DNA from: a virus
Strand: one strand, 5' to 3'
IMG/VR virus record: IMGVR_UViG_3300022744_000045
Coordinates: 1-45,123 of that record
Length of the DNA: 45,123 nucleotides
The position numbers and the translations under genes were made by a program. Below, one piece after another: positions 2,610 to 42,471 of this stretch. A model generated the notes under the pieces. It was not told the DNA's origin and ran no database searches. It saw nothing but the letters and a program-made list of their open reading frames with translations. The number at the start of each line of letters is the position of its first letter. Within the stretch, counting starts at the first letter, position 1.

Positions 2610-2618
2610 AGAAATCCT

Positions 2619-3101: not shown

Positions 3102-3604
3102 TACGCGATGCCGTTGGTCACGCTGGTTGCGGTGATCGAGGCAACGTAGTTGTTGGACGCGTCCTGCAAGCGCTCTGCCACAGGGGTGGGTTGCGTGTAT
3201 GCCACGGTAACAGCCCCGGCCACGAAGTTAGACGTGAAGTCCAGGTGCACGAACGGCCCGTCAACGGTAACCTTGGACACGGTTTTGACCTGACCGCCAA
3301 CGGTAAATGCAGCGGGCAGTGGCACATTGGCGGCGCCCAGGCCCTCAGAGAACACCAGCGTGATGCGCTTGGGGGCAAGGGCCGTGATGGCTGCGCTTAC
3401 GAAGGTAGGCACAGTGGTCTCGACAAAGCTGGCGATGGCCGAAGAACAGGCGTCAAAGAAGTCCTTGAGGGCTTTGGCGTTGCGGGCTTTGCCAGCGTTA
3501 CGGCCAGCATTGATCTCCACAGCGGAGATAGCATTGGCGGCTTCGAGTCGGAGGCAGATGCCATTAGACAGCAGGCCGGGAGATGGGAGAGTTGCTACAC
3601 GCAT
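3101..3604 (-). CDS. Putative structural protein with SwmB-like Ig fold (left copy)
   Basis: This 167-aa protein begins MRVATLPSPG, has an Ala-rich helical N-terminal half, then a beta-rich C-terminal domain. That domain (roughly residues 75-165) contains ITLVFSEGL, VTVAYTQP and LQDASNNYVASI. These strands match the pattern of SwmB/Ig-like adhesion domains (a VxLxYTxP strand followed by LQDxxGNxV). The ATG at 3604 has an AAGGA site. It lies between the large terminase and lysozyme genes. A virion or surface-attachment role is inferred from the fold and not shown. The same gene is repeated, truncated at the window edge, at 44761-45123. Confidence 0.55.
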   Translation of the reverse strand: MRVATLPSPGLLSNGICLRLEAANAISAVEINAGRNAGKARNAKALKDFFDACSSAIASFVETTVPTFVSAAITALAPKRITLVFSEGLGAANVPLPAAFTVGGQVKTVSKVTVDGPFVHLDFTSNFVAGAVTVAYTQPTPVAERLQDASNNYVASITATSVTNGIA

Positions 3605-7570: not shown

Positions 7571-7608
7571 GATTTCCTTAATGTAGTTAAGCAGCCAGCA
7601 GAGCATGC

Positions 7609-10743: not shown

Positions 10744-10754
10744 GTTGGCTCCTT

Positions 10755-10781
10755 AGAAAGAAAGCCTCCCCGAAGGGAGGC
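10755..10781 (-). terminator. Rho-independent terminator after the gp16-like gene
   Basis: On the minus strand a perfect 7-bp stem GCCTCCC/GGGAGGC closes a TTCG tetraloop and is followed by TTTCTTTCT. It lies between the stop of the gp16-like gene (10802) and the ATG of the fibre gene (10743). It may partly terminate transcripts before the fibre cluster. Confidence 0.85.
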
Positions 10782-10801
10782 AGTAGTACAGGTACTGGAG
10801 G

Positions 10802-18293: not shown

Positions 18294-20804
18294 TTATACC
18301 CTCGGCAAGCGGTTGAATAGTTGGCCGTTCCACTCAAGCGCGGTAACGGTTAGCGGATACCATCGGCGGGCCTTGATGGTCAGGGAGTAGTCGTTGGTCT
18401 CTCGGCCAATTGGGATGCTGAACGCGCCCGTGGTCACTGGCTCCGTGCCAATCACGTTGGCTGGCAGGCCCATTGTGCGCCCACTGAACGTACCAGTAGA
18501 GGCTACGTTGTAGTACGCCAGCGCCCAGTCTGCCCCGATGCTGTTCTTAAAGGCAACGGTCATCTTGCCCACCGTGGTGCGCCCCGACAGCACCGCCTTG
18601 CCCTTAGAATCCCGCACGTACGGGTTGGTTGGGGTGAAGCTGGATTCCTGTACAGCGCCTACCATCAGCGTGCCCTCGTACCCAGAGACTGCCGCCATGT
18701 TCGGCAGCAGCGCTCCGGTGAACTTACGCACCCCGGTAGCGAATGCTACGGCCCAGGATGGCCCGCTGTTCGCGGTGATGCTGTGGCCTGGGGCGATCAG
18801 GCTGGCTGGCCGCACGCTGTCTAGGTACGGGTACCCGCTCAGCTTGGTCTCAGTCGGCACGAGGTCGGCGGACAGCAGCCAGCGCCCGTTGGCACCTTGC
18901 CGTAAGAACGTAATGACTACCCCAGCCCGCGTCACCGACATGCCGAGCACGTAGCCCAGCACCGGGTTGAACTCCCATTTGGCCCATGCGTCCATCTTGC
19001 GGGCGTCTACCTTGTCCAAGTAGGAGAACGTGAACACACCGTTGCGGTGCGCGTTGGTACGAAGGCACAGGATTGATGGCGTACCCGTGGCCACCACAAT
19101 GTCAGTAGCCCCGCCGGCTAGGTAGTCGTCAAGCTGGCTCGACACCGGGTAAGACTCAGGCGACTTGTTGTTCTGCCCGGGCTGTATCTGGTGCAGGCTG
19201 GATGATACCTCCCCGCGCTTGGCGTAGAAGATGATGCCACCAGCGGACACTGGCGGGGCGTCCACGGTGCCTGCGTACGAAGACATAACTGGCATGGCCG
19301 CAGAGGTGGGGCTCAGGGTAACGTTACCCGAGATCACGTACTGCCTCCGCGTGCCGAACACTACGAGGTCTTGGTCATACAGGACGCTGTGCCGAAGCTC
19401 GTCGGACTCGCTGCCTGTTGGCAGCATTTCAAACGGGTCGTCAGCCGGGAGTGTAAGCACAGTGCTGCGGAAGAAGTTGAGGTAGTCCTCTGTGCGGCTA
19501 AGCGCCAGCACCCCGCCGCTGCCCACCAGCATACGGTTCTGGAACGTGCCGAGGTATGTGATCTGCCGCCCGACGAAGTACGGCATGGGCCCCGTGTCGT
19601 CGTCGCCTACTGTGCTGGGGCTGAACGCAGGATGGGAGCCGGGGGCTATGGTGGCGAGGTGCCCGGGGCTGGACGCAAAGCACAGCGCGTTGTTGTGCAC
19701 GGTGGCGTAGAACAGCCCGCCCGTTATCGAGTGCAGCTTACCTGCTCCCTCTACCCAGGACACCTCTTGATAACCTACCGTGCCGCTGGAACCCTTGGCC
19801 ACAGCCGTGAGGTAGTACGCTTCTTTGCTGGAGGCCGAGCGCACCTTGACCACCTTGCCCGGGTAGTGAATGACGCTTACCTTGTCGGCGCTGGAAATCT
19901 CGTCGGCCACTGCGCGGAACAGGGAGCCGTCCCCACCGTCGTCTACTTCGATGGACTGCACCAGCCGATCACCGAAGAAGCAGAGGTGCGAACCGATCAC
20001 GGTACACCATGGGGCAACGAGGGCGTTGAGGTCAGCGGCCAGGGCCGTAGCGATGGCGGCTGGCTGGATGGCTGCGGTTGACGTGCCAATCCATGCGGTC
20101 ACGGCGGCGTTGTATGCGTTAACCCGGTCGTTCACCTTCTTGGTGTACTCTGGGTCACTGGCCGCAATGTCGGACGTGCTAAGCGTGCCGGGGTAGCTGG
20201 ATGCTGGGGTGGTGTACGTGGCTGTCTTGGTGCCTGCGCTTTGCGTGTGTACCGTGATCTTGTACGTACGGCTAAAGGCCCCGCCTCGTACCCAGGCCAC
20301 AGCCCGGCTGTAGTTCAGCGAGGTGCCCCACTGCTCTACGGACTGCCCAGTCACTGGCGTGTTGTTGGCCGCGAGGAACAGGTACTTACCAACCGCTGTG
20401 ACTGCCGAGATACCGTTGATCTCTGCGGCCTGAGCGGCTGTGTCCGCTGGGGCTAGCACGGTTGGCAGGAACAGCTTATCTGTCTTGTTGTAGCAGATAA
20501 GCGCCGGCAGCTTGCCATCACCAGCAGCCCGTGTAGACTTGCGGTAGGTGAGTAGGTACTCTTTTCCGAGGTGGGCAAAGTCCAGGCTGTGCATCTCTGC
20601 GGTGTCGGCCACGTTCGTGTTAACGTCGGTGCCAATGCCCGGGTCGAAGTCAGCCTGCCACACTGAGCCGTGTCGGCGGGCCAGCCCGTTAACTGGGTCG
20701 GACAGCATGTTGATCTGCTCTGTGTGCTGGCCCTCTGAGCGCTCTTGCGCCACTTGTTGGCTCACGCCCCGGAGGACGGAGGCATAGCTGCTGCCTGCTT
20801 TCAT
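18294..20804 (-). CDS. Tail tubular protein B (nozzle), gp12-like
   Basis: This 836-aa nozzle subunit of the short tail starts MKAGSSYASVLRGVSQQVAQERS. The early motif HTEQINMLSDPVNGLARRHG is characteristic of T7 gp12-type proteins. Beta-rich sequence follows, including LVGSGGVLALSRTEDYLNFFRSTV and VVFGTRRQYVISG, typical of the nozzle propeller. The ATG at 20804 has an AAGGTGG site. It directly follows tail tubular protein A. The length is comparable with T7 gp12 (794 aa). Confidence 0.93.
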   Translation of the reverse strand: MKAGSSYASVLRGVSQQVAQERSEGQHTEQINMLSDPVNGLARRHGSVWQADFDPGIGTDVNTNVADTAEMHSLDFAHLGKEYLLTYRKSTRAAGDGKLPALICYNKTDKLFLPTVLAPADTAAQAAEINGISAVTAVGKYLFLAANNTPVTGQSVEQWGTSLNYSRAVAWVRGGAFSRTYKITVHTQSAGTKTATYTTPASSYPGTLSTSDIAASDPEYTKKVNDRVNAYNAAVTAWIGTSTAAIQPAAIATALAADLNALVAPWCTVIGSHLCFFGDRLVQSIEVDDGGDGSLFRAVADEISSADKVSVIHYPGKVVKVRSASSKEAYYLTAVAKGSSGTVGYQEVSWVEGAGKLHSITGGLFYATVHNNALCFASSPGHLATIAPGSHPAFSPSTVGDDDTGPMPYFVGRQITYLGTFQNRMLVGSGGVLALSRTEDYLNFFRSTVLTLPADDPFEMLPTGSESDELRHSVLYDQDLVVFGTRRQYVISGNVTLSPTSAAMPVMSSYAGTVDAPPVSAGGIIFYAKRGEVSSSLHQIQPGQNNKSPESYPVSSQLDDYLAGGATDIVVATGTPSILCLRTNAHRNGVFTFSYLDKVDARKMDAWAKWEFNPVLGYVLGMSVTRAGVVITFLRQGANGRWLLSADLVPTETKLSGYPYLDSVRPASLIAPGHSITANSGPSWAVAFATGVRKFTGALLPNMAAVSGYEGTLMVGAVQESSFTPTNPYVRDSKGKAVLSGRTTVGKMTVAFKNSIGADWALAYYNVASTGTFSGRTMGLPANVIGTEPVTTGAFSIPIGRETNDYSLTIKARRWYPLTVTALEWNGQLFNRLPRV

Positions 20805-20805
20805 G

Positions 20806-21408
20806 TTACCACCTTGCTTGGCGCACCACGCGCTTGATGCGCTGTAGGCGCGGGTTACTGTTGAGCAGGTTGACGCCAGCCTGCCGGGTGTTCTCTGCGT
20901 GCGCCTCTGCCTTGGCCAGCCGGTACTCGGTGGTTAGCTCAGCGCGTCGATTGTTGTCGCCGTCGTAGTTGGACTGGAACTTCAGCACAGTCGCCGCAGC
21001 TACCAGCCGATTGACTACAGCGGGCAGGTCTTCTAGCGGTACGCGCCGCACTACCTCGCCAGTGACTTTCTCTGTCATGAGGTACGTGTTATTCCGAGTG
21101 TCATACAGACGGCCACCACGCTCCACCAGCCAAGGCTTGGCGTAGGTGCGGGTGAGGCTGTCTTTGCTACGCACGCCGGACTGCCACTTCAGGCAATCGC
21201 CCGGCAGGTATATCATGCCGCTTGGGTCAGGTGTCAGCGTGGTGGCGTCAGTGTTGAACCACCAGCCCGTTGCCTGAATGTCCTCAAGCTGCTTATCCAG
21301 CGTCCGCAGGATAGCACCCTTCATTTCATGGGGCTCGGCTACCGTGTTGAGCGGTACCTCACCCATAGTGGCAAGGCAGTCGTTAATAATATCCAGTTCG
21401 GTAGCCAT
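20806..21408 (-). CDS. Tail tubular protein A (adaptor), gp11-like
   Basis: This 200-aa ring adaptor joins portal and nozzle. The ATG at 21408 was selected because of its strong AAAGGAG site; upstream in-frame residues to 21471 run through the terminator. The N-terminus MATELDIINDCLATMGEVPLNTV and the following helix with LDKQLEDIQATGWWFNTD match the conserved gp11 pattern (an LNxxL(x)xIGxxPV start, then QxxGWxFN). The C-terminus is basic (RIKRVVRQARW). It sits between capsid and nozzle genes, as in T7. Confidence 0.93.
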   Translation of the reverse strand: MATELDIINDCLATMGEVPLNTVAEPHEMKGAILRTLDKQLEDIQATGWWFNTDATTLTPDPSGMIYLPGDCLKWQSGVRSKDSLTRTYAKPWLVERGGRLYDTRNNTYLMTEKVTGEVVRRVPLEDLPAVVNRLVAAATVLKFQSNYDGDNNRRAELTTEYRLAKAEAHAENTRQAGVNLLNSNPRLQRIKRVVRQARW

Positions 21409-21439
21409 GTTAGCTCCTTTAGTATTGGCGTTTATAGAT

Positions 21440-21469
21440 GCAAACAGAAGCCCTCCCCGAAGGGAAGGC
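21440..21469 (-). terminator. Terminator after the major capsid gene (T-phi-like position)
   Basis: On the minus strand GCCTTCCC and GGGAGGGC pair around a TTCG loop (one G-T pair), followed by TTCTGTTT. It starts 16 bases after the capsid stop codon. T7 has its main class III terminator in the same place. The T-run is interrupted, so read-through is likely. Confidence 0.75.
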
Positions 21470-21485
21470 AACTGTTTACACCCGG

Positions 21486-22490
21486 TTAAGGCTTCAAGAT
21501 CACACCGGCAAACTCGGCGCGGTTGGGGGTCACACCGTAGCTCAGGTGTGCGTCAACAAACCATTGCTTGGTGAGCTTATCCCAGAACACGTCGGTGACC
21601 AGAGGGATGGTCTCACCGGCCATCAAGGCGCGGGGAGAGAAGGCGGCAGCGGCCACCTTGCTGAAGTCGCCGTCGTAGGCGTTGCTGTTGTTGGCGTTGC
21701 TCAGCAAGTGACCAGTGATGGTCTGACCTGCTGGGAAGTTAGTCGAGCTAACCACGGGTACGCCGTACGCCTTCAGCAAGTGAGCTTGGATGCTCGTGCC
21801 TTCGGAGGTCTTGTAGCTACCGTCGATCAACTGCTCGTTCTGCAACAGTGCATAGAACTCAGCAGGGCGCACGGCGATCATCACATCGTCGTTGCGGGGG
21901 TCAACGTCCTTCTCTTCCATCTTGACGAACAGGTCAGCGATGGCAGCGTAGAGCTTGGCGGGGTCGAGCGAATCACCGGCAGCGGCCAGGGTTTGCTGCG
22001 AACCACCGAAGTGACCAGCGGGCTTGCCGGATGCACCAGCGCCACGGTAGGTGGACTCTGCGAACAGAGCAGCCTTGATGGCTTGGATGAAGAACGATTG
22101 GTCGGTGAACTTCGCAATCTTCTTGCCGTGCTCCATACCGATCTCCTTGCGGGAATCGTAGGAAGTCTGGAAGGTTTCCAGCAAGGGCAGCACTGCGCGG
22201 GCCAGCACCACGGTGTCCACGGTCAGCGTACGCTTGGCGAAGTCGGTGCCGGTACCATCAATGGGCATGCCGGGGGTTGCCTTCTGCAACGTGGATTCAC
22301 CAACGGCGAAGTTGGTCAGCACCGAGGTGCCGCGCACGGGGCGCATAGGAATCCAACCCTGCAACGCGCTCTTGCGGGTGATGGTAGATTCAACGATGCC
22401 GGTGAACTCTTCGAGGTGATGCGCGGAGACAGAGCCGGCTTGGTTGTTCTGACCGGGGCGAACGATATTGTAGCTGTCGTTAAGTGACAT
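21486..22490 (-). CDS. Major capsid protein
   Basis: This 334-aa HK97-fold-type capsid subunit, comparable to T7 gp10A (345 aa), starts MSLNDSYNIVRPGQNNQAGS. Motifs such as FTGIVESTITRKSALQGWIPMRPVRGTSVLTNFAVG, VDTVVLARAVLPLLETFQTSYDSRKEIG and the PRNDDVMIAVRPAEFYALLQNEQLIDG stretch are shared with T7-group capsids. The ATG at 22490 has a GAAAGG site. A candidate phage-polymerase promoter lies 37 bases upstream of the ATG and a terminator follows, consistent with high late expression. Confidence 0.95.
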   Translation of the reverse strand: MSLNDSYNIVRPGQNNQAGSVSAHHLEEFTGIVESTITRKSALQGWIPMRPVRGTSVLTNFAVGESTLQKATPGMPIDGTGTDFAKRTLTVDTVVLARAVLPLLETFQTSYDSRKEIGMEHGKKIAKFTDQSFFIQAIKAALFAESTYRGAGASGKPAGHFGGSQQTLAAAGDSLDPAKLYAAIADLFVKMEEKDVDPRNDDVMIAVRPAEFYALLQNEQLIDGSYKTSEGTSIQAHLLKAYGVPVVSSTNFPAGQTITGHLLSNANNSNAYDGDFSKVAAAAFSPRALMAGETIPLVTDVFWDKLTKQWFVDAHLSYGVTPNRAEFAGVILKP

Positions 22491-22526
22491 GACGGCCTTT
22501 CAAGTTGGTTATGTGACGGTGTGTCA

Positions 22527-22541
22527 CGTATTACTGGTACC
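22527..22541 (-). promoter_or_regulatory. Candidate phage RNA polymerase promoter before capsid gene
   Basis: The minus strand reads GGTACCAGTAATACG, followed by a GTGAC/GTCAC inverted repeat. The same 15-mer core recurs at 25716-25730, 29797-29810 and 43101-43115, each upstream of a gene cluster. TAATACG is also the 5' core of T7-type promoters. Here it lies in the short gap between scaffold and capsid genes. Confidence 0.5.
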
Positions 22542-22546
22542 GAGTA

Positions 22547-23293
22547 TTAGCCTCGGAACGCATTTCGCCGGGCTTGCAGAGTGGCGTACTCTTGCGAACC
22601 CTCGATGCGGCCACGCAGCTTCACGTTAAGCTGCTGCACGGCGTCGGCGTAGGCTCGTGGGCTGAGCGGGCCGTTATCGGCGTTGGGGATACCACCACGG
22701 CTAGCACCGGAGGTGGCATCGCGGGGGTCAACCACAACGTTGTTAGCCCGGCTGTACGCTGACAGGAGGTACTGCACTGCGCCCTTAGCGGCAACGCCTC
22801 CTTGATTGAGCAGCCCGTTGATCTGGGCCTTCTCTTCTGGAGTGGCGTTGGCGCTGGCCCACTTCTGCACGGCCAGCCACTCTTGCTCGCCACCTGCGGC
22901 TGCGATGACAGCCTCGCGGGTCTTGGCAGCGGTGGCGGCTGCGTCGGCAGCCTTGCGCTGGTAGGCAGTCTCACCCAAGGCGACGAACTGCTCCCATCCT
23001 GCTGCACCCTTGGCAGCAAGCTCTGCCTTCAGGATGCTAAAGTCGCCTTTGGTTGCGGCGACCATTGCCGGGTGGGTATCGGAGATTCCCTGTTTGCCAA
23101 TAAAGGCAAGGGCCATGTCAAGACCTACATCACCCGTTGGCTCGAACTCCACGGGGGCCGCGTCGTTGATAGCGGCTGGCGCTGGGGCAGGGACTGTGGG
23201 AGCAGCCGGGGCCTGCACCTCTGGCACGTCCAGCGTTACCGGCGTCGTGGGTGTGGTGGGTTCTGTGGGAGCTTGGTTAGCGTCTGTCGTCAT
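22547..23293 (-). CDS. Capsid assembly scaffolding protein
   Basis: This 248-aa protein has an acidic, Pro/Ala/Thr-rich, disordered N-terminus (residues 1-55, with many PTxP and APAAP units). A helical Ala-rich middle and a C-terminal basic helix (LNVKLRGRIEGSQEYATLQARRNAFRG) follow. This layout and its place between portal and capsid match T7 gp9-type scaffolds, which guide procapsid assembly and leave before DNA filling. The ATG at 23293 overlaps the portal stop (ATGA) with an AGGAA site. The start of GGxPNADNGPLSPRAYADAV resembles other podovirus scaffolds. Confidence 0.9.
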   Translation of the reverse strand: MTTDANQAPTEPTTPTTPVTLDVPEVQAPAAPTVPAPAPAAINDAAPVEFEPTGDVGLDMALAFIGKQGISDTHPAMVAATKGDFSILKAELAAKGAAGWEQFVALGETAYQRKAADAAATAAKTREAVIAAAGGEQEWLAVQKWASANATPEEKAQINGLLNQGGVAAKGAVQYLLSAYSRANNVVVDPRDATSGASRGGIPNADNGPLSPRAYADAVQQLNVKLRGRIEGSQEYATLQARRNAFRG

Positions 23294-24795
23294 GCGGGTT
23301 CCTGTGTGGCGGCGGCAATGCCACCTTGTGTTATTACGTCTTGCGCTACGGTGTCAGCTTGCATGCTGGCCTGCTTCTCTGCGAACTCTTTGTCAGTTAG
23401 CAGGAATCGGGCAAGGTCGATGTTGCGCCCTTGGCCAACGAACGCGGCGATCTCTTCCCACTTGATGCGGGCAGATAGCTCAGGTGGTACGGTGGCAATC
23501 GCCGCCATGTCCCCCATCGCTGCGCGGAAGTTTTCCAAGTCGCCGTTACGGCTCAGCGCATCCAGGCCGGTGATGATCGTAACGTCGAGGTCTGCGCCCT
23601 TGAGGTCAATGTCGATTGCGTCGAACAGCCAGCGGGCGACCGGCGCTTGTAGGCTTGCAGCCAGGGTGGAGTACACGCCACCGTAAGCTGTCTCAAGCTC
23701 CTGCGCAGTCAGCCGCACCTCTTCCTGTGTGACACGCTCTGCGTCACGGATAACCGCGCTTCCCATCAGGAAGCCCCGGCTTACCCGCCGCTCATACTTG
23801 TCAAGCACTGCGCTGGCAACGTTGATCGACTCTGGGTTACCGCCCTGCGTGGCCTTCACGTCTTCCGGCATGCCGGGTAGCGCGTCGCCGTTCTCGCTGT
23901 TGTTGAGATCATCAACGCTGGTCATCCCGGTGGGGTTAACCATCCAGCGGTACTCGGTGCCCTGCACTGCGCCATCGACCACAGACTCGGACAGGGTGCT
24001 AATAGCCTCAAGGTCTCCGATGTACTCTTCAACCAAGCCTGTCCCGTAGTTCGCTTCGTCGGCCAAGTCCCAGGTAATCACCTGATATGGGCAGCGCTCA
24101 GCGGGCCAGCGGCCGTCGTACTCTTTTGGCAGCTTGGTACCGTTAACCCACTGGGTCATGGTGTACGCGCCGTTACGCTCTCGCTTAACCCACTTGAAGA
24201 ACTCGACTGTGCTGTCCTCGCTGTGCTGTCGCCCAAGAAGGTCAACGATCTTGCTGTCCAGTTCGTCGAACTTAATCTGCTCTCGGATAACGATGTGCAT
24301 CACTTCGCCAGCGATGTTACGCTTAACGACGTAGTTGCGGATACCAATCACACGGATACCGTCCTTGGCCAGTACCAGCAGAACGTTGCCGGTAACGACA
24401 AGGTGGCGCATGATCTGGAACAGCTTTGGCCGCTGACCACGAGAGTCAAGCTCTGCGATAGCGTCTCGCTCGCCTTTGGCTAGGATGGCGTCAAGCTGTG
24501 TCTGGGTCACACCCATAGCCTCGGCCTCGGCCATCGCCTTCTTGCCGGCCTTCAGCTTAACAAATGGGCGCGACGGGGCGAACATGGCCAGCATCAGTTT
24601 GTTGCTGATGTGGTTGACTGCCTCAGCGCCAATGCTCTGGTAGTCGTGCGTCTGGTCGGTGCTCTCGTGGTTAAAGCCAGATGGCAGCAGAACCTTTTGG
24701 ATGGTCAGGGCTGCGTAACGCTCCATGCGGGTAAGCATGCCCTGGCGCAAACCGTTACACGCCGCCCACATCTGGGCTGCGGTGTTGGCTCTCAT
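23290..24795 (-). CDS. Portal (head-tail connector) protein
   Basis: This 501-aa dodecameric portal is of the T7 gp8 type (536 aa). Recognisable stretches are MWAACNGLRQGMLTRMERYAALTIQKVLLPSGF, SIGAEAVNHISNKLMLAMFAPSRPFVKL, WDLADEANYGTGLVEEYIGDLEAISTLSESVVDGA and AERVTQEEVRLTAQELETAYGGVYSTLAASLQAP. The last stretch is highly characteristic of T7-group portals. The ATG at 24795 overlaps the stop of the upstream 112-aa gene. It forms the DNA entry and exit channel and binds the terminase. Confidence 0.95.
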   Translation of the reverse strand: MRANTAAQMWAACNGLRQGMLTRMERYAALTIQKVLLPSGFNHESTDQTHDYQSIGAEAVNHISNKLMLAMFAPSRPFVKLKAGKKAMAEAEAMGVTQTQLDAILAKGERDAIAELDSRGQRPKLFQIMRHLVVTGNVLLVLAKDGIRVIGIRNYVVKRNIAGEVMHIVIREQIKFDELDSKIVDLLGRQHSEDSTVEFFKWVKRERNGAYTMTQWVNGTKLPKEYDGRWPAERCPYQVITWDLADEANYGTGLVEEYIGDLEAISTLSESVVDGAVQGTEYRWMVNPTGMTSVDDLNNSENGDALPGMPEDVKATQGGNPESINVASAVLDKYERRVSRGFLMGSAVIRDAERVTQEEVRLTAQELETAYGGVYSTLAASLQAPVARWLFDAIDIDLKGADLDVTIITGLDALSRNGDLENFRAAMGDMAAIATVPPELSARIKWEEIAAFVGQGRNIDLARFLLTDKEFAEKQASMQADTVAQDVITQGGIAAATQEPA

Positions 24796-25130
24796 ATGTT
24801 CACCCCGGTGCCTGCGCTACCGACGCCGAAGGTAGCCCGGCGCTTGCGCACAGAGGCGCTGGCGCTTGTCGCGGCCGGCGTGCCCAGTTGCACGTCAGGC
24901 GTCTCGATGGGCGTGGCCAGCGTGTCGGCTGCTGCACCCTGCGCTGCGATGCGCTGGGCGGCTAGCTCTTGGGCACGCGCCGTCTGCGCTGCCGCCTCTT
25001 GGTTGGCACGTGCTGTCTGAGCCGCAGCCTCGCGGGTGGCGGAAGCCTGCTGGTCAGCGGCGGCTGTGGTAGCGGCTGCTGCTTGGTTGGCCCCGGTTAT
25101 GTTACCAACCACTTTACGAACGAATCCCAT
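24792..25130 (-). CDS. 112-aa Ala-rich putative structural protein
   Basis: This protein begins MGFVRKVVGNITGANQAAAA and continues with imperfect heptad repeats (TAAADQQASATREAAAQTARANQEAAAQTARAQELAAQR). It is therefore likely a long amphipathic helix or coiled coil. A QTARA(N)QEAAA unit is directly repeated. The C-terminus is short and basic (RKRRATFGVG). The ATG at 25130 has an AAAGG site, and the gene overlaps the portal start by 4 bases. Small Ala-rich proteins before the portal occur in many T7-like phages, often as minor virion components. The function is unknown. Confidence 0.7.
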   Translation of the reverse strand: MGFVRKVVGNITGANQAAAATTAAADQQASATREAAAQTARANQEAAAQTARAQELAAQRIAAQGAAADTLATPIETPDVQLGTPAATSASASVRKRRATFGVGSAGTGVNI

Positions 25131-25551
25131 TGGGTACCTTTAGGCAGTATGACTGCGTTAGTTTGTGAAAGCCAGCCTGCTCGTAGGCAGCGGCAACGAT
25201 TTGCACTGGGCTGCTATCGGCAGTCATGACGATGCCACAGCCTAAGTCGCGGGCTATCTCCAGCAGCGCGGGAGGGATGCTGTCCACGCTGCCACCTGGG
25301 TATAGCTTCATGACGTACCACTCTTGCAGTATTGCGTCATCGCTGTACCACGGCGTAACAATGTCGATCAGCACGAGGTAGCCATCAATGACATAGGCGT
25401 GATGGCTGAACACCGCTGCCTCTACAGAGGCGATGGCTTTGCGCAAGCTCGTCGTTACCACGAATGGGTACTTCGCTGCCCGCGCTTCCATAGCCTGAAG
25501 AGCCTTTGTGATGGCAGGCAAGTCTGCCGCTTTAGCGTGTCTCCACAACAT
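25114..25551 (-). CDS. GNAT-family N-acetyltransferase-like protein
   Basis: This 145-aa protein has the N-terminal pattern of GNAT domains (MLWRHAKAADLPAITKALQAMEA). A beta region follows (AAVFSHHAYVIDGYLVLIDIVTPWYSDDAILQEWYVMKLYPGG) and then the acetyl-CoA-site helix region PPALLEIARDLGCGIVMTADSS. The usual C-terminal strand pair is present (YEQAGFHKLTQSYCLKV). The substrate is unknown; phage GNATs may modify host or virion proteins. It overlaps both neighbours (20 bases with the 60-aa gene, 17 bases with the Ala-rich gene), indicating translational coupling. Confidence 0.75.
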   Translation of the reverse strand: MLWRHAKAADLPAITKALQAMEARAAKYPFVVTTSLRKAIASVEAAVFSHHAYVIDGYLVLIDIVTPWYSDDAILQEWYVMKLYPGGSVDSIPPALLEIARDLGCGIVMTADSSPVQIVAAAYEQAGFHKLTQSYCLKVPNGIRS

Positions 25552-25714
25552 AGCCAGCCCTCAGTTCTTTCAGCACGGCTTGCACGCCTAGCTGGAATCC
25601 CACCTCAATCGGTGTAGTGGCAGAGGTTACAATGAGCTTGCTCATTTTGGCCTCCAAGGTTTTATATACCGTGGGCTCTAAGCGCACGATAGTCTGCTCT
25701 GATTTTGTGGTCAT
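25532..25714 (-). CDS. 60-aa putative ribbon-helix-helix-like small protein (start uncertain)
   Basis: The full reading starts MTTKSEQTIVRLEPTVYKTLEAK. The segment TIVRLEPTVYKTLEA resembles the beta strand and first helix of small Arc/CopG-type DNA-binding proteins, but the rest is not diagnostic. The ATG at 25714 has no ribosome site and lies just 1 base after the conserved promoter-like motif. An internal ATG at 25645 has an excellent GGAGG site 5 bases upstream and would give a 37-aa protein (MSKLIVTSATTPIEVG). Both forms could be made, the short one from transcripts starting at the motif. It overlaps the GNAT start. Confidence 0.55.
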   Translation of the reverse strand: MTTKSEQTIVRLEPTVYKTLEAKMSKLIVTSATTPIEVGFQLGVQAVLKELRAGYVVETR

Positions 25715-25715
25715 G

Positions 25716-25730
25716 CGTATTACTGGTACC
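25716..25730 (-). promoter_or_regulatory. Candidate phage RNA polymerase promoter after the RNAP gene
   Basis: The minus strand reads GGTACCAGTAATACG, the same 15 bases as at 22527-22541. It lies immediately downstream of the RNAP stop (25736) and ahead of the GNAT/portal/scaffold cluster. A start about 10 bases after the motif would lie inside the 60-aa gene's first codons. Confidence 0.5.
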
Positions 25731-25735
25731 AGAAC

Positions 25736-28174
25736 TCAACTGAAGAAGAAGTCGGACTCTAGCACTTCCATAATGTCCAGGGCACCCTTGGTTGGTGGCT
25801 CACTGATGCACGGATACTTCGCACGCAGAATGGCTGGTGGGTCGCACGCTAGGTACATGGCCACGAACTGCTTGCGGATAGAGTCAAACAACGCTTGCGC
25901 GTCAGCGGCGTGTGTGCCGTAGTCGTCGTGAATCATGGCGAGGCTGGTGATGCCTTGCCGTGCCGCGTCGGCTGTGGTCAGATGCAGGTGCGCTGCATCT
26001 AGGCTGTGCACGAAGTTGGGCGCTAGCCCGCTGGCGTGCCGGTTGGCGTCCGGCTTGTCGGACTCGCTGAGCACCCTGATCTTGACGGGCCCGTGGAGCC
26101 ACGTGTTAATCCGGTGCACCTCGGACTCGTAGTAGTCTTGACAGGCAGGGAAGCCAGACGGTGTGAGCCACGTGATGTGCTCGGCGTCTGTCTCGCGCAT
26201 GATCTGCCGAGCCGCCTTCTTGAGCCAGTCCATCGCCTCGCGGCCCTTAACGACAACGTCGCCAATCGCTGGCCACACCGCAGACATGAGCAGCTTAGCC
26301 GCCTTGCGATACTGTGTTGGGTCGAACGTGGGGCCGAGGTTCTCGCGGAGGTAGTCGTCAACTACGTACTCTGTAGCAGTGCGCTCAGTCACACCGTACG
26401 GCGTTGTCATCACTGCCCGCTTTACTGCCTTGCGGCTGATGCCGTGGGATAGCCACTGCTGCCGCATCTTGTCGGTCTCTTCGTCCAGCCCGGTCATCGC
26501 GGCCAGCCGCTTGGTAGCAGCCTTGGCGACGTTGTTGTAAATGTCCTCCATCACCGCGTTGTTGGTGAGGTTCGTAGCCTTGCCACCGATCTCGTCGCGG
26601 AACATTGCGCTAAGGTTTTGCAACCCGTTGCAGCTTCCATCCATGCTAATGGGTAGGTGGCTGACGAATGTATCAGGGCGCAGCGTGTACTCTTCGTACT
26701 CGAAGCACCATGCGAGGAACTGCAACGGGTCGCCTGCCTCCGTCCAGCCTTGGTTGTTAACAGGGTCAGCAGCGAACTGCATGATCTGGTCGTGATGCTC
26801 GCCCACCCACTTAACGCGGTCTTCGAGTGTGGCCTTATCAAAGCCCCACTTGTTTGCGCCTTGCACATGGAACCAAAGCACAGCCCGCTCGTCAGGCAAC
26901 GGCTTGCCTTCCGCGAAGTGAATCAGGGACTTGCTGAGGTCAGAGCCCTGGGGGTTGAGGCCGTAGGTCAGCGGGTACAGGCGGCCACGACTATCAGCAA
27001 AGTACACGAAGTACAGCTTAGGGCTATCGCGGAACATTTCTGCTGCGCGGGTAGCGGCATAGAAGCGGGCGTACCGGGTGCCGAGAATCTTGCGCTGCGT
27101 GTACCACTCGGTGGCCTCGCGCTTCCATGCAGAGAACTCGGTCAGCTTATCGGCGGGCCACTCCGTCTTCGGAGCCTTAGTCCAGTCTTCCTTGAGCCAC
27201 TCTGGCTTGGGCGGTGGCGGCGTGTCCGCGAGGGATACGATCTCCTTGGTGCTGAACACCTTAGCCACGGCATACACCGTGTTCAGCAAGCGGGTGTTAA
27301 CCTTCCACGCCGTGCGCTGCAAGGCGTTGACGGCAGCATACACGGTGGGCATGTCAGTATTGCGGGCCAGCTTGCGGGCGGCTGATCGACCATGCACCAG
27401 CGTTGGGTTAGCCCGCTGCATGTGCTTGGTGTGGTAGCCGCCAATCTGCTGGAAGCCCCAGTCAAGGGGCGGCTCCACGCAAGGGCCGTAGACCGGCATC
27501 GTTACGGACACGTAGCTCTTGATCTTGTCGATGTACTCGACAACCTCTGGGTGAATCAGCACCGCCCGCTCTTCGCGCTTGTGCCCAACGCGCAGTTCAG
27601 TACCGAGCACGATAAGCCCGGCGTCTTCGAGCAGGCCCATGATGTACATGCCAACCTGCTCACGGCTACCCAGGTTCCACTCGGTAATATCAATACCGTT
27701 GGCCTTGGCCTGCATAGCAAAGACGGTCAGCTTGTGCCGCTCGTCCTTGGACATACGCCGCCCCAAGTCCTGAGCCAACGTGTGGTACAGGTCTGGGGCT
27801 GCGTCGTGAATCTGCGTGAGGATAAGCTCACGGTGCACGGTGCGGCCAATACCATAGGCGAGGCTGCGATGGGTCTCGGGCTTGCTTGAGAGAAGGACAC
27901 TGACAACATACCGCACAGCCAAGAAGGCAACCGCCTCGCAGTCGAGGGCGGTGAGCAGTCGGACGTGCGCCTGCCGTGCCCCTGCCCGCTTAGCCTGAAT
28001 GTCCGCCCGGATGGTGGCGGCCAGTGGCATCACGTACTCACGGAACAACTCTGCTGCGTATGGGTTCTGGCTTGCGCGGCCGTTCTCTTCGGCTGCGTTG
28101 AGGGCTCGCTCAGCGCGATTGATACCGCCCTGATACATCATGTGCTCGACTTGCTCTTGTGTGGTAGGTGTCAT
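25736..28174 (-). CDS. Single-subunit T7-like DNA-directed RNA polymerase
   Basis: This 812-aa polymerase of the T7 gp1 family transcribes middle and late phage genes. The catalytic motifs are intact. Motif A is PISMDGSCNGLQNLSAM (Asp512, T7 Asp537). The finger motif is GISRKAVKRAVMTTPYG (Arg581, Lys585, Tyr593, equivalent to T7 R627/K631/Y639). Motif C is AMIHDDYGTHA (His749, Asp750, equivalent to T7 H811/D812). The end is ESDFFFS, close to the T7 C-terminal foot ESDFAFA. The ATG at 28174 has an AAGGA site. Its place after the replication genes and before the structural genes is the phiKMV arrangement. Confidence 0.97.
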   Translation of the reverse strand: MTPTTQEQVEHMMYQGGINRAERALNAAEENGRASQNPYAAELFREYVMPLAATIRADIQAKRAGARQAHVRLLTALDCEAVAFLAVRYVVSVLLSSKPETHRSLAYGIGRTVHRELILTQIHDAAPDLYHTLAQDLGRRMSKDERHKLTVFAMQAKANGIDITEWNLGSREQVGMYIMGLLEDAGLIVLGTELRVGHKREERAVLIHPEVVEYIDKIKSYVSVTMPVYGPCVEPPLDWGFQQIGGYHTKHMQRANPTLVHGRSAARKLARNTDMPTVYAAVNALQRTAWKVNTRLLNTVYAVAKVFSTKEIVSLADTPPPPKPEWLKEDWTKAPKTEWPADKLTEFSAWKREATEWYTQRKILGTRYARFYAATRAAEMFRDSPKLYFVYFADSRGRLYPLTYGLNPQGSDLSKSLIHFAEGKPLPDERAVLWFHVQGANKWGFDKATLEDRVKWVGEHHDQIMQFAADPVNNQGWTEAGDPLQFLAWCFEYEEYTLRPDTFVSHLPISMDGSCNGLQNLSAMFRDEIGGKATNLTNNAVMEDIYNNVAKAATKRLAAMTGLDEETDKMRQQWLSHGISRKAVKRAVMTTPYGVTERTATEYVVDDYLRENLGPTFDPTQYRKAAKLLMSAVWPAIGDVVVKGREAMDWLKKAARQIMRETDAEHITWLTPSGFPACQDYYESEVHRINTWLHGPVKIRVLSESDKPDANRHASGLAPNFVHSLDAAHLHLTTADAARQGITSLAMIHDDYGTHAADAQALFDSIRKQFVAMYLACDPPAILRAKYPCISEPPTKGALDIMEVLESDFFFS

Positions 28175-28181
28175 GTGTTCC

Positions 28182-29117
28182 TTAAATGTCCGTTCGGATT
28201 CCCTTGAAGCGGGGCTCCCGCAACAAGCCGTTAACTGTCAGGCCCATAGCCTCGACCTCAATATGGTAGCCATCCCACCCGACAGCAGTGATCTCGTCTA
28301 CCTGCTGCTGCGTTAGGCCGGTGCTCACCTTCTGCTCGTGCCCATCGAGCATGAACTTCAGGGCTGCCGTGTTCTTGCCGGTCTTGGTGCCGAAGTCCAG
28401 CGCTGCCCCCGTGACCTGCACGGTGTAGCTAATGAGCGGCTTGACCTTGATGAACTCGCCACCCTTGCCAGAGCCCACGATGTACTTGCCGTTGGCTGGC
28501 GCCAAGATGGCACCATCGTAGAAGCTGTCGGTTCGGCGCTTGTGGTCTTGGGCCATCACGCTGGCAAAGTCCCAGGCCATCTGCAAGGTGCCGACGAACT
28601 CGTAGTGCCGAGGCTTAATGAGCAGGCTGGGCGGGGCCTTTGGGTTGCGCTGGTCTAGCAGGGCAGCGAGGCGCTTGCGGTACGGTGCTGGGTAGGCGCG
28701 GCCATCGAGCACCCCGAGGGTGGGCAGGTTCTGCTGCCAGTCGTACCCGTTGTGGTCAAAGGGCACAATGTCGAACGGCACAAAGCCAAGCTGTGGGCTG
28801 GGTGTGTGCCGTCGGAACAGGCCGCTGATCTCGTTGAACTCCAGACCGGGCGACCACGCTTCGCCGCAGATTGCAATGCGCCCTGCCGCCAGGGGGTACG
28901 TGTCCAGCAGAGCGGTGGCTATGTGCGGCATAGATCGCACTGGCTCCCCTGTGCGGCTCAGCGTGCCAACGTGCTTGCCGTCATCGAACAAGAACACCGC
29001 GTGGCACCCGTCGTACTTGGGTGTGATGATCCACTCTTCGTTAGCCTCAAGGGCTTGGGTAGTCTTGGCGCTGAGCGCTGATCGCTCTACTGCCTTGTGA
29101 ACAATGTAGTCAGCCAT
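28182..29117 (-). CDS. ATP-dependent DNA ligase
   Basis: This 311-aa ligase seals nicks during replication and recombination. The adenylation motif is KYDG (ITPKYDGCHAVFLFD, catalytic Lys near residue 35). Further motifs are TLSRTGEPV (motif Ia/III region), ICGEAWSPG (motif III), DGAILAPANGKYIVG (motif IV) and FIKVKPLISYTVQVTG (motif V). A C-terminal OB domain follows. I chose the ATG at 29117 (MADYIVHKAVERS); the longer reading to 29132 would use TTG. It overlaps the upstream 87-aa gene by 8 bases, and RNAP follows 7 bases after its stop. Confidence 0.93.
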   Translation of the reverse strand: MADYIVHKAVERSALSAKTTQALEANEEWIITPKYDGCHAVFLFDDGKHVGTLSRTGEPVRSMPHIATALLDTYPLAAGRIAICGEAWSPGLEFNEISGLFRRHTPSPQLGFVPFDIVPFDHNGYDWQQNLPTLGVLDGRAYPAPYRKRLAALLDQRNPKAPPSLLIKPRHYEFVGTLQMAWDFASVMAQDHKRRTDSFYDGAILAPANGKYIVGSGKGGEFIKVKPLISYTVQVTGAALDFGTKTGKNTAALKFMLDGHEQKVSTGLTQQQVDEITAVGWDGYHIEVEAMGLTVNGLLREPRFKGIRTDI

Positions 29118-29373
29118 GTGTGCGTAGTGCAAGTTCTGTGTTGAACAAGGCAGCTTCGATAACCTCGACTGCCTTGGCGAATGGGGTTGTCGCTGTTAGC
29201 TTCTCTGCCAACTGTGCGTACACATCAGCCCGTGCCTCGTCTGACGAAAAGGCCGGATTGATATTGATAGCTTTATAGATACGGTCAGACGTTTCCTCAA
29301 CGTCAACTGTATCTCTGTTGCCTGCGTAGATCGCTACTGCCAGCACGTATGCTTGGCCACGGTTATTCAACAT
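29110..29373 (-). CDS. 87-aa hypothetical protein
   Basis: This small, mostly helical protein starts MLNNRGQAYVLAVAIYAGNRDTV and ends ALFNTELALRTHG. No catalytic motif is visible. The ATG at 29373 lies inside the end of the upstream diphosphohydrolase-like gene (11-base overlap), and the stop overlaps the ligase start, so it is part of a coupled operon. The ribosome site is weak, as expected for a coupled start. The function is unknown. Confidence 0.7.
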   Translation of the reverse strand: MLNNRGQAYVLAVAIYAGNRDTVDVEETSDRIYKAININPAFSSDEARADVYAQLAEKLTATTPFAKAVEVIEAALFNTELALRTHG

Positions 29374-29725
29374 GAATCTGCTCTCGCTTTCTAAGCATAA
29401 GGTCTAGCGTAGCTAGTGCGTTCCATGCTGCATGTGCTGCATGCTCAAGCTCACTGTCTGGGTCAGTGTTCTCGCCTGTCTTCTCTTTGAGCCAGTGCCG
29501 GAGCAGAGCGTCGTCGTACCGAGCCTGCCCGTTAGGGACACTAACCCACCCGTTCTCTGTGTACTTGGCTGCACCGAAGGTACCTACTGCACTGACGGCC
29601 AGTAGGGCACGGGCGAAGCCACCAAGCACCAGGGCTGGTCGTACTTTCCCGGCATCCACCTTGGCTCCGGGCTCGTGCTGACCTCTCCCAGTTGGGTCAG
29701 CTTCAACTACTGGCTTTGTTGCCAT
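29363..29725 (-). CDS. dATP/dGTP diphosphohydrolase-like protein (DUF5664 type)
   Basis: This 120-aa protein carries the conserved pattern KVDAGKVRPALVLGGFARALLAVSAVGTFGAAKY, then GW, then ARYDDALLRHWLKEKTGE, then SELEHAAHAAWNALATLDLML. This matches the all-alpha NTP pyrophosphohydrolase-related family named dATP/dGTP diphosphohydrolase N-terminal domain, to which MazZ of 2-aminoadenine phages belongs. Glu, Asp and His residues in the RYDDAL and ELEHAAHAAWN helices could bind metal. Nucleotide-pool control is likely; a role in base substitution is not supported, because no PurZ-like gene is seen here. The ATG at 29725 is the first gene after a candidate phage promoter. Confidence 0.75.
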   Translation of the reverse strand: MATKPVVEADPTGRGQHEPGAKVDAGKVRPALVLGGFARALLAVSAVGTFGAAKYTENGWVSVPNGQARYDDALLRHWLKEKTGENTDPDSELEHAAHAAWNALATLDLMLRKREQIHVE

Positions 29726-29742
29726 CCTGCATTCTCCGAATG

Positions 29743-29810
29743 TTGCAATAGATGCAGCAATAGGCTAGACGTAACCGTAAGGTCAGAGGTCTAGCGCGTA
29801 TTACTGGTAC
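29743..29810 (-). promoter_or_regulatory. Conserved leader/promoter element before the ligase-RNAP cluster
   Basis: The minus-strand motif GTACCAGTAATACGC (29797-29810) is followed by a GCTAGA/TCTAGC inverted repeat and then by TGCTGCATCTATTGCAA (29743-29759). The last segment, and the general spacing, is repeated at 43043-43115, so the whole element of about 70 bp is duplicated. It lies in one of the few real gaps between genes. This fits a phage-polymerase promoter with a structured 5' leader. Confidence 0.55.
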
Positions 29811-29816
29811 TGGTTC

Positions 29817-30602
29817 TTAGTTACTCAACAAGCTCAATCGCTTGCGCTTGCTGTTGAGGGTGTACCGGCTACGAGCGAAGCCGAAGCACTCGCCGCATTG
29901 GTACCGGGTGTACTGCCCTGTCTGCGTGTACGCTGGTTTGTCCAGCGCTGTAAGGTGCGTGCTGCCACAGCGCGGGCAGCGCATGGCATCATCGTCATAG
30001 TACGCTGCCACATTGGGGTGGCCCTGCATGTACGGGCGCAGCTTGAGATAGAGTTCCTCAGTCCCCGGCACGTCAATGCAGTTGTACTTCTTCATGACTT
30101 TCCACGCCTTGGGGTTACCCTTCAAGCATTCCGTCCACAACTCCATGCCTGGGAACTCCGAGTGGGAATACTTTGGCGTGTCGGTGAGGTGCTTGCTCAG
30201 CCACTCAAGGCGGTTGCTGGTAAACTTCGCAACGTCCTTGGCGATCAGCATGGTGTCGATCACCTTAATGGGCGGCAGCGGTGGGAAGCCAAGCTCGATG
30301 AACCGAGCGTTGATCTTCTTCATGTCGAACGCCTTGCCGTTCTGTGCGATCACAATGTCTGTCTCGCACAGCAGAGCATGCAGCCCGGCCATCAGGTCAC
30401 GGTCGTCGCGGGGGTTTGCCTTCTTGCTGGTATCGTCGTACACGATCTTACCACCGAGTGGCTTGTAACAGTAGGACATGACCGACCACTCTTGCACGAT
30501 CTGGTTAAGTCCGATGTTGACTTTCCACAATCCCCAGACGTAGGCGACAATGGGGCTGGTCTCAATGTCCAGCGTTGCGATGCGGGGGCCGCGCTTACTC
30601 AT
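29817..30602 (-). CDS. DnaQ-like 3'-5' exonuclease with C-terminal zinc ribbon
   Basis: This 261-aa RNase-H-fold exonuclease has ExoI LDIETSP (Asp11, Glu13), ExoII IAQNGKAFDMKKINARF and an ExoIII-like YNCIDVPGTEELY. The C-terminus holds a four-cysteine zinc ribbon (RCPRCGS and YQCGECFG). It probably trims DNA or RNA or assists repair; DNA polymerase here has its own proofreading domain, so this enzyme is separate. The ATG at 30602 overlaps the stop of the 46-aa gene (ATGA). Similar proteins occur in many phiKMV-like phages. Confidence 0.82.
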   Translation of the reverse strand: MSKRGPRIATLDIETSPIVAYVWGLWKVNIGLNQIVQEWSVMSYCYKPLGGKIVYDDTSKKANPRDDRDLMAGLHALLCETDIVIAQNGKAFDMKKINARFIELGFPPLPPIKVIDTMLIAKDVAKFTSNRLEWLSKHLTDTPKYSHSEFPGMELWTECLKGNPKAWKVMKKYNCIDVPGTEELYLKLRPYMQGHPNVAAYYDDDAMRCPRCGSTHLTALDKPAYTQTGQYTRYQCGECFGFARSRYTLNSKRKRLSLLSN

Positions 30603-31064: not shown

Positions 31065-31983
31065 CGACTCGTCCTTTGATCTCTTCGTAAGCGTTGGTGA
31101 ACACCGGGTCGGTGTTGTTGAACACATCCAGTGGCCCGCCCACATCCATGCAGTCGTCCCACTTGGTTGGGTCGCGGCGCATCCAGAGCAAGCAAGCCTG
31201 CTCCATCATCTCGACCAGCCAGCGGTCGCCGTAGTAGCTGCGGTAAAGCTCGGCCACACGGAGGTGCGGCAACTGCTCGTCCGCGAGGAACTTGCCTGCC
31301 GTAACCTCGCCACATGGCTTGGCCTTGCCGTCAACCACATACTTGGGCAAGCCCGGTATGTTGTCCGCTGTGTCTCCGTGCAGCATCTGCAACCAGAACC
31401 ACTTGGGGCCGTACTGCTTGTCGTTGAACACGCTGTCCTGCACGTTGCCCCAGCCGCCTGCCACTGTGTGCAGTCGGTGGGTAACCCAGTCAAGGTGCAT
31501 GCCGGGTAGCATGCGCATGTCCTTGTCCTGCGTGCAGATCACCACGTTCTCCGGCTGGGCGTATGCCCACATGCCGAACAGGTCATCGGCCTCGGCCACG
31601 GCTGTCGCTTGAATGTCAAAGGGGAATGTGCCACCTGCCTCCATGCACTCCCGCAAGTGTTGCCAGTTCTTTGGGCGGCGGCTGTTAACCCGCTGTCCTT
31701 GGTACGGCTTCACCCGGGCAATCGCATAGCGGTGTCCCTTGTGGCTACCTGAGCTTGTCAACAGGATGACCACGCGCTCCGCGTTACACGCCCGCTGCGC
31801 AGACTTGACCTTTGAGATCAAGTTGGCGCGGGCCTCTCCAGCGTCAGTATCGTCGTTACCGGCGCAGTAATAGGCAAGCCCATCACCGTCAACCAGTAGG
31901 ACGCGACGTGGTACAGGTACCGCATTGCCCCCCATCGGGGAGGCAGCGGACGCGGCAGCAATCGCTGCGTCAAACGGTGTCAT
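31021..31983 (-). CDS. 5'-3' exonuclease (FEN-like, T7 gp6-type)
   Basis: This 320-aa flap-endonuclease-fold enzyme removes RNA primers and degrades host DNA. Acidic metal sites appear as LLVDGDGLAYYCAG, AEADDLFGMWAY, VICTQDKDMRMLPG and LHGDTADNIPGLP; the last is the helix-hairpin-helix-linked site. The ATG at 31983 (MTPFDAAIAAASAA) has a GAGG site. It overlaps the upstream nucleotidyltransferase-like gene by 14 bases. The order polymerase, ssDNA-binding, exonuclease fits a T7-like replisome. Confidence 0.92.
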   Translation of the reverse strand: MTPFDAAIAAASAASPMGGNAVPVPRRVLLVDGDGLAYYCAGNDDTDAGEARANLISKVKSAQRACNAERVVILLTSSGSHKGHRYAIARVKPYQGQRVNSRRPKNWQHLRECMEAGGTFPFDIQATAVAEADDLFGMWAYAQPENVVICTQDKDMRMLPGMHLDWVTHRLHTVAGGWGNVQDSVFNDKQYGPKWFWLQMLHGDTADNIPGLPKYVVDGKAKPCGEVTAGKFLADEQLPHLRVAELYRSYYGDRWLVEMMEQACLLWMRRDPTKWDDCMDVGGPLDVFNNTDPVFTNAYEEIKGRVDDADNINAKALEGE

Positions 31984-41962: not shown

Positions 41963-42007
41963 CAACACCATAAGTCATGGTGTTGATAGATAGACACTAA
42001 GTCTATC
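41963..42007 (-). other. Two strong hairpins in the early leader
   Basis: CAACACCAT/ATGGTGTTG with a 5-base loop (41963-41985) is followed by GATAGAC/GTCTATC with a 5-base loop (41989-42007). Both are perfect. They lie in the 5' leader of the first early gene, downstream of all sigma70-like promoters, and could stabilise the mRNA or serve as processing sites. Confidence 0.7.
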
Positions 42008-42323
42008 CGACAGTGACTACCATATAACCCAACTCGGGTATTCGTAGCAAGCATTCCACACTAAACCATGCTGCAAGCGTTATCCTAGCGCACCACCACA
42101 AGGCGAACCTAGGGCAGCTTGATAGGGCTAACAGCATGTGAGATAGGCGCACACTACACCTAGCGTCACTGTCTCCACTCGGGCATAAACGTACTCGGGC
42201 CATGGCTTGCCACTCTTCATACGTCATCAAAGCCGTCTCACTAACGCAAGGCGAGGCTGTGGCGCTTAACACAATCCACACCTAACCCGGCGTTAGCCGA
42301 TACTTCACAGCATCATGACCGAT
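42008..42323. other. Early leader region without a convincing gene
   Basis: This stretch between the promoter array and the first early gene has one minus-strand reading (42003-42227, beginning MTYEEWQAMARV) with no good ribosome site and a Cys/Trp-rich composition unlike its neighbours. I see no other coding signal. It is probably an untranslated leader of about 390 bases, or it may hold a very small toxic early gene that cannot be resolved by eye. Confidence 0.5.
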
Positions 42324-42352
42324 ATTGTAGCACAGCGATATGTGCTTGTCAA
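42324..42352 (-). promoter_or_regulatory. Sigma70-type early promoter P1
   Basis: On the minus strand TTGACA (42347-42352), a 17-base spacer and TACAAT (42324-42329) form a near-consensus promoter. TGC before TACAAT gives an extended -10. It would read into the early genes. Confidence 0.85.
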
Positions 42353-42399
42353 CATCGGCCCGTTAGCTAGTAGCCTAGGCCACTTACTAACTTACCTAT

Positions 42400-42427: not shown

Positions 42428-42437
42428 CACTGTCATC

Positions 42438-42459: not shown

Positions 42460-42471
42460 TAACTTGCCTCT

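Follow-up and report, generated by a model that had tools for sequence, protein, structure and literature searches.

A conserved, oriented motif as the very probable promoter of the phage's own RNA polymerase in a relative of Curvibacter phage P26059B

In the screen of phage RNA polymerases (RNAPs) in PMC11475235, no usable promoter was found for 18 of 44 RNAP families, and only 8 of 26 predicted RNAP-promoter pairs were active. The prediction listed there for Curvibacter phage P26059B, R23, is the 20-mer GCAACATTACAGGTACTGAA (Table 1); R23 stands outside the six strongly active pairs that the text names among the 8, and its value is displayed in a figure. According to a 2026 paper (PMC13029058), the conserved positions of phage RNAP promoters are +1, -1, -3 and -4. 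The RNAP of phage Dev-CD-23823 has a verified start at A (PMC12272871), and VSW-3 RNAP prefers G for initiation, uses A less efficiently and does not start with C or U.

The stretch of DNA analyzed here, called the window, is a virus record of 45,123 bases from a phage of the T7/phiKMV kind, and its annotated genes are on the minus strand. Of the annotated isolates, the nearest is P26059B, of the genus Kalppathivirus (Autonotataviridae in current taxonomy), whose RNAP is 73% identical to that of the window and whose record was opened in much the same way. The window phage encodes a single-subunit RNAP of the T7 superfamily, which aligns with T7 RNAP across residues 8-811. The features discussed below are as follows, with scores in bits from a weight matrix.

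7361-7375, minus strand: candidate inside the second fibre-like gene (5900-7606), clade-exact over its first 14 bases, 7362-7375; 11.1 bits
10782-10796, minus strand: fifth putative promoter copy, AGTACCTGTACTACT, in the gap that separates the 1525-aa internal virion protein from the tail fibre; 17.6 bits, predicted +1 at 10784
22527-22541, minus strand: putative promoter copy before the major capsid gene; 17.9 bits, predicted +1 at 22529
25716-25730, minus strand: putative promoter copy 5 nt behind the RNAP stop codon; 21.1 bits, predicted +1 at 25718
25736-28174, minus strand: single-subunit RNA polymerase, 812 aa (PF00940, 334.6 bits), the presumed reader of the motif
29797-29811, minus strand: putative promoter copy before the gp3.5/MazG-like gene-ligase-RNAP group, exact to the clade pattern; 18.8 bits, predicted +1 at 29799
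31907-31921, minus strand: degenerate copy, GGTACCTGTACCACG, at the 5' end of the exonuclease gene; 15.2 bits
42282-43133: 853-nt gap between the lysis genes and the early genes
42324-42662, minus strand: four predicted host sigma70-type early promoters with TG extension
43101-43115, minus strand: putative promoter copy in the genome-end/early leader gap, exact; 25.5 bits, predicted +1 at 43103
43577-43591, minus strand: near-match, AGTACCTGTAATGCA, in the outer spanin gene; 20.3 bits
43.5-44.8 kb: lysis genes

The motif of the clade can be written as WTTY-RGTACCnRTAnTAC; the search pattern learned from relatives is RGTACCNNTANTAC, and the motif in gene-forward orientation is TTTCAGTACCTGTAATACG. 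An earlier note on this DNA had proposed four sites in real gaps between genes, and these stand: GGTACCWGTAATACG occurs exactly on the minus strand at 22527-22541, 25716-25730 and 43101-43115 and with one edge mismatch at 29797-29811, and all four sites lie wholly outside the chain of open reading frames, in a window where about 4.7% of 15-mers are fully intergenic. When up to 3 mismatches are allowed, GGTACCWGTAATACG has 8 matches in the window, 8 of 8 on the minus strand, against 1.33 +/- 1.29 expected. The pattern RGTACCNNTANTAC has 6 exact matches on the minus strand of the whole window and 0 on the plus strand, with 0.01 expected, and no exact match in the wrong orientation was seen; 5 of the 6 are in gaps and the sixth is inside a fibre gene. 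The list of four was incomplete, however, since the gap copy at 10782-10796 (clade-pattern match at 10783-10796) and the exact match at 7362-7375 had been missed.

The weight matrix was built from 11 chosen sites of relatives only; P26059B sites 2794 and 26924, both L227 sites and the L180 capsid site were left out of the training. Searched over the genome as the earlier note had suggested, it ranks the window matches, all on the minus strand, in the order 43101, 25716, 43577, 29797, 22527, 10782, 31907 and 7361, with all four first-listed sites in the top six beside 10782 and 43577, the latter in the spanin gene. Maxima over 60 simulated genomes had a mean of 9.6 and never exceeded 16.5 bits. 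The four sites of the earlier note and 10782 each score above every one of these maxima; the score of 7361 was equalled or passed in 17 of the 60 random genomes. Chance or coding coincidence is an extremely improbable source of the motif as a whole. Val-Pro-Val codons (GTA CCT GTA) can give a near match, as at 43577, but 6 exact matches stand against 0.01 expected and the same places are kept in dozens of contigs; coincidence is refuted for the five gap sites, and 7361 and 43577 are candidates only. The near-match at 43577 may be a second genome-end copy or a coding coincidence (Cys-Pro-Val-Pro-Val), and copies at the genome end may be paired, as they are in P26059B. L495 (record G003, positions 34950-34963) also has an exact motif near its genome end, within the Rz1 spanin gene, with a codon and frame that differ from those at 43577. 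The match at 7362-7375 sits upstream of the holin and terminase genes, and in P26059B a copy stands in the gap between the fibre and holin genes.

The lysis genes and the 853-nt gap with its four sigma70-like promoters (4 found, 0.6 +/- 0.7 expected) place the genome end and early leader at 42282-43133. Two of these four promoters have TGTGGTACAGT in common, and several repeats of TGTGGTACAGTAGAG are held in the same gap. The four stand downstream of the 43101 copy, elsewhere than the motif, which counts against the motif being a host sigma70 promoter itself. Under that reading TAATAC, weakly like TATAAT, would be an imperfect -10 box; yet a scan of 20700-30000 placed none of its 3 sigma70-like sites (2.8 expected) at the motifs, and no -35/-10 pair with 16-18 nt spacing was present at the motif sites in 20700-30000 and 42000-43500. 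A host promoter at the motif can thus be given hardly any credence. Additionally, the ends of the window record overlap: its first 100 bases appear again at 43760 and its last 100 at 3364-3463, the overlapping regions being 1-3463 and 43760-45123, with two endolysin copies. Between the two offsets there is a difference of about 2.1 kb, close to the size of the 721-aa ORF at 444-2609. It looks as though the assembly of a circular genome had run on beyond its end, once including the gene of that ORF and once lacking it.

Information content was computed over 38 distinct sites and is concentrated in positions 1-6 (RGTACC), 9-10 (TA) and 12-14 (TAC), while positions 7, 8, 11 and 15 are loose. The earlier note had taken TAATACG, whose letters are present in all four sites, for the 5' core of T7-type promoters. 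If the T7 register applied, TAATACG would occupy -17 to -11 and RNA would start about 17 nt further on. This register is very unlikely, and the likeness appears to be a coincidence of letters: the third and seventh bases (motif positions 11 and 15) vary freely, at 0.10 and 0.24 bits over the 38 sites, the sequence downstream through position 17 carries at most 0.26 bits, and the conservation lies upstream of and within GTANTAC, with RGTACC as the conserved half. The best match of the T7 consensus TAATACGACTCACTATAG (17-18 bp) in the window has 4 mismatches and stands in an unrelated place. For a promoter of the phage's own RNAP, the likely +1 is the invariant A (position 13) that follows GTAAT in GTAATACG, because this choice puts firm bases at -4, -3, -1 and +1 and a free base at -2, which fits the positions of PMC13029058. 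A GG-anchored spacing of 12 nt also favours A as the start; for Scott, P14, Percy and Cd1 a spacing of 11 nt looks better.

Conservation was examined in relatives. For the RNAP locus the best 80 loci were kept, of which 30 are distinct with RNAPs at least 59% identical, the window included, and the scan ran from 3 nt before to 45 nt after the RNAP stop; the capsid scan covered 36 loci, and its count uses 27. Where a contig had a second locus, it was dropped from the counts of conservation and concerted change, as were pieces of the window itself; 12 loci were removed in this way from the post-RNAP and capsid conservation count. Behind the RNAP stop, the motif was found without mismatch in 17 of the 30 distinct loci among the best 80, with up to 1 mismatch in 23 and with up to 2 in 25, compared with 0.5%, 0.75% and 2.0% of random segments. 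It begins mostly 2-5 nt past the stop (5 nt in the window) and lies within 45 nt in 25 of the 30. At up to 2 mismatches the post-RNAP pattern was missed in L378, L379 and L447 (3 mismatches each), in L387, where no site is close to the stop but AGTACCCCTATTGCA, about 50 nt behind it, is a possible one, and in L450, where a motif site lies about 350 nt further on. Ahead of the capsid gene, 19 of 27 loci have the motif without mismatch, and 26 have it at up to 1 and likewise at up to 2 mismatches. In the tail-fibre gap, the motif is present in 7 of 8 candidate regions from relatives, immediately behind the internal virion protein and 53-69 nt before the fibre ATG in the 6 regions with the fibre start on the contig; the eighth, L491, contains neither gene. 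The keeping of the motif in this gap suggests that 10782-10796 is the window's fifth promoter. For the 29797 copy, no such conservation of position was seen in relatives.

Among 12 whole records, 40 exact matches were found in 10, 40 of 40 on the transcribed strand, and 2 of the 12 had no exact match. In scans of the whole collection with 14-mers of the motif, the matches listed are mostly chance hits in unrelated contigs, and a minority of these loci encode relatives. One of the loci, L050, a 65.9-kb viral contig, had no match to the window's 16 query proteins; at 20-348 it carries four copies of AGTACCTGTAATAC within 330 bases. Moreover, two of the copies change in concert: in 18 genomes, post-RNAP and capsid copies differ at 1.50 of 14 core positions within a genome, compared with 3.23 between genomes. 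The p value of this likeness, 5e-5, is at the limit of 20,000 permutations and overstates independence, because some of the 18 genomes are close relatives. The simplest cause of such concerted change is a shared reader of both sites.

The RNAP is a natural candidate for that reader, and residues of its specificity loop equivalent to T7 746/748/756/758 were read from the alignment with T7 RNAP. The tally comprises 26 close RNAPs for which the loop could be read and the motif was clear; L465 (loop unreadable), L385 and L447 (motif unclear) and L450 were left out. RNAPs with the loop R/N/K/R go with RGTACC in 18 of 18 cases. The other loops (n=8) go with a changed hexamer in 6 cases (GGAACC in 3, TGCACC in 2, AGTACA in 1) and with GGTACC in 2, and these counts include near relatives (L372-L374, L452/L376, L378/L379). 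L373 and L374 have a changed loop yet GGTACC, and L381 has one altered and one normal site. Among wider relatives, the 758-equivalent is S in XAJ24 and K in Percy, both with GGTACA, and V in P14, with GGTACG; Cd1 and Brevundimonas phage BC combine the loop RRFR with GATACC. A loop code in which R, S/K and V at the 758-equivalent go with C, A and G at motif position 6 is suggestive and was set aside: CD23823, with K at the 758-equivalent, keeps ACC, whereas the K of Percy goes with A, and one L381 site also breaks it. As a whole, the association of loop and motif has the expected direction, with few independent lineages and some exceptions, and fits recognition by the RNAP, short of proof.

The same evidence bears on whether the motif is instead the site of some other phage DNA-binding protein, such as a repressor, a protein that initiates replication, or one used in packaging. 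The palindrome GGTACC, the copies on either side of the genome end and the inverted repeats that often follow speak for such a site. However, the motif taken in full has no symmetry and without exception points in the direction of transcription, its variants are associated with the specificity loop, and it stands directly behind the RNAP gene, where verified promoters of KP34 and VSW-3 sit; a non-promoter site is accordingly very unlikely. Several near-identical copies, all oriented with transcription and placed before groups of genes, are present in the window. The motif is thus very probably a lineage-specific promoter of the phage's own single-subunit, T7-family RNAP, which is what the earlier note had suggested; judged from sequence comparison, this reading agrees with the computed positions, orientation, conservation, concerted change within genomes and specificity-loop association.

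From this promoter reading we infer a scheme of RNAP binding, start site, base contacts and temporal order. Host RNA polymerase would read the early genes from the four sigma70 promoters at the genome end, and early transcription would express the replication genes and finally the phage RNAP. The phage RNAP would then bind WTTY-RGTACC-nRTAnTAC, its specificity loop (R688/N690/K698/R700) reading the RGTACC half at about -12 to -7. Melting would take place in the TAnT stretch (-4 to -1), with the RNA beginning at the invariant A. The copies would drive the genome-end leader, ligase-RNAP, connector, capsid and tail-fibre/lysis/packaging groups.

In relatives, the motif also occurs within the exonuclease gene, just before the LLVDGDG motif. 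Ten distinct contigs, with an exonuclease at least 57% identical and a readable N-terminus, were read by hand from their codons; contigs with an unplaced N-terminus, e.g. L380 and L450, are omitted. The copy is exact in 7 of the 10 and has one mismatch in 2 (one of them the window) and two mismatches in L374. It is the same as the genome's own post-RNAP site over 15 bases in L459 and L383 and over 14 in L395 and L371, and in L379 the exonuclease copy reads TGCGCCTATACTATC compared with TGCACCTATACTATC. The protein varies with the promoter variant of the genome (VPVV, VPIV, VPIL, APIL), and in L396 the motif, GGTCCCTATAATAC, compared there with the clade pattern, is read in another frame (GPYNT). 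These variant-following copies, the protein changes and the L396 frame point to selection at the DNA level. It appears rather likely that a phage-RNAP promoter is embedded in the 5'-3' exonuclease coding sequence and that the protein follows its variants (Val-Pro-Val-Val, Val-Pro-Ile-Val, Val-Pro-Ile-Leu), with the window copy decayed, the intergenic 29797 copy standing about 2.1 kb further downstream, and promoter and specificity loop changing together genome-wide. The 31907 copy of the window is probably weak or lost. If the embedded promoter is real, promoter and RNAP loop change together across the genome, even through a gene.

The earlier note had also seen an inverted repeat directly after three of the four sites. 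This holds loosely, in that short stems follow 22527, 29797 and 43101 and none follows 25716. Fold z-scores over the first 60 nt are -1.16 for 22527, -4.22 for 29797, -3.19 for 43101 and -2.13 for 25716. In relatives, 5' hairpins with z below -2 follow 10 of 21 capsid copies, compared with 11 of 120 controls, and 3 of 8 fibre copies and 0 of 22 post-RNAP copies. This uneven occurrence suggests that the hairpin is not part of the promoter itself. A predicted hairpin directly behind the fibre promoter, often with a T-rich tail, was observed in 8 of 8 genomes (window 10754-10784, L484-L490); it is predicted to be a terminator-like or 5'-protecting stem in the leader of the new transcript. The putative promoters at 29797 and 43101 have similar leaders (29744-29811 and 43044-43115) that end in TGCTGCATCTATTGCAA, and on visual inspection the 29797 unit resembles a duplicate of the genome-end cassette. 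TGCTGCATCTATTGCAA (29744, 43044) was considered as a pause or terminator signal, its ATCTATT being near the T7 class II signal ATCTGTT, and was read as part of the duplicated leader. In P26059B, CTGCATCTATTGC is found behind the 37820 copy.

The comparison of many environmental relatives yields, for the whole clade, a consensus, the direction in which it is read and the base at which RNA is predicted to start. The natural variants of RNAP and promoter (RGTACC, GGAACC, TGCACC) are usable to test rules for the specificity loop, and the clade offers orthogonal RNAPs for in vitro transcription. For specialists, the interest lies in these variants, in a promoter that may shape the N-terminus of the exonuclease, and in a conflict of orientation with a published prediction. 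The P26059B string listed in Table 1 of PMC11475235 is the reverse complement of TTCAGTACCTGTAATGTTGC, i.e. of the window motif. In the P26059B record, every match to it with up to 6 mismatches is on the plus strand and all genes are on the minus strand, so the prediction may be in the wrong orientation. As far as the literature was searched, the motif is in print only in this reversed form; a literal search did not find the motif strings, and the 2025 catalogue (Zhu et al., NAR gkaf140) may list related promoters.

Among known promoter systems, that of Klebsiella phage KP34 (PMC6834552) resembles the window's in having its RNAP gene 3' of the replication genes and few copies of its strong promoter, TAATGTTACAGGAGTA, one of them directly behind the RNAP gene. 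The KP34 promoter sequence, however, is unlike that of the window, and its RNAP is 28% identical; the KP34-type TRATGTTACAGGAGTA is absent from the window, the best match to TAATGTTACAGGAGTA having 4 mismatches and lying elsewhere. VSW-3 likewise has one copy of its promoter, TTAATTGGGCCACCTATA, directly behind the RNAP gene. The verified Syn5 promoter ATTGGGCACCCGTAA agrees by eye with GGTACCAGTAA at 9 of 11 bases. Syn5, VSW-3 and the window have in common a short G-rich specificity half followed by a TA-rich start, but Syn5 and VSW-3 differ from the window in the 3' half and the start base (G in VSW-3), and their whole strings match no window site. The Cronobacter phage Dev-CD-23823 promoter AATGTATACCCCTATATACAC (PMC12272871) has a TACC core, a TA-rich start, +1 at A and an RNAP of 818 aa; it differs in its hexamer, TATACC, and its RNAP is 37% identical. 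In several distant phages, CATCTATTG resembles a Shine-Dalgarno spacer plus a TTG start, and in Brevundimonas phage BC an annotated gene begins at this TTG. Motifs that were predicted or found de novo stand directly behind the RNAP in JG068, Percy, Cd1, Scott, Ponderosa, XAJ24, Brevundimonas BC and PSTNGR1. In PMC11475235, the P14 and JG068 strings agree with the de novo motifs, and the Scott string differs from the de novo TTTCRGTACCGTATAGCA. The predicted promoters of JG068, TCAGTAGACTATCTAG, and P14, TTTCGGTACGCTCTAGCA, differ from the window motif in the rest of the core, with RNAPs 42% and 49% identical; both share with the window the TTTC-RGTA half and a similar placement in gaps, and the PHIRE motif of JG068 has the same place behind the RNAP gene.
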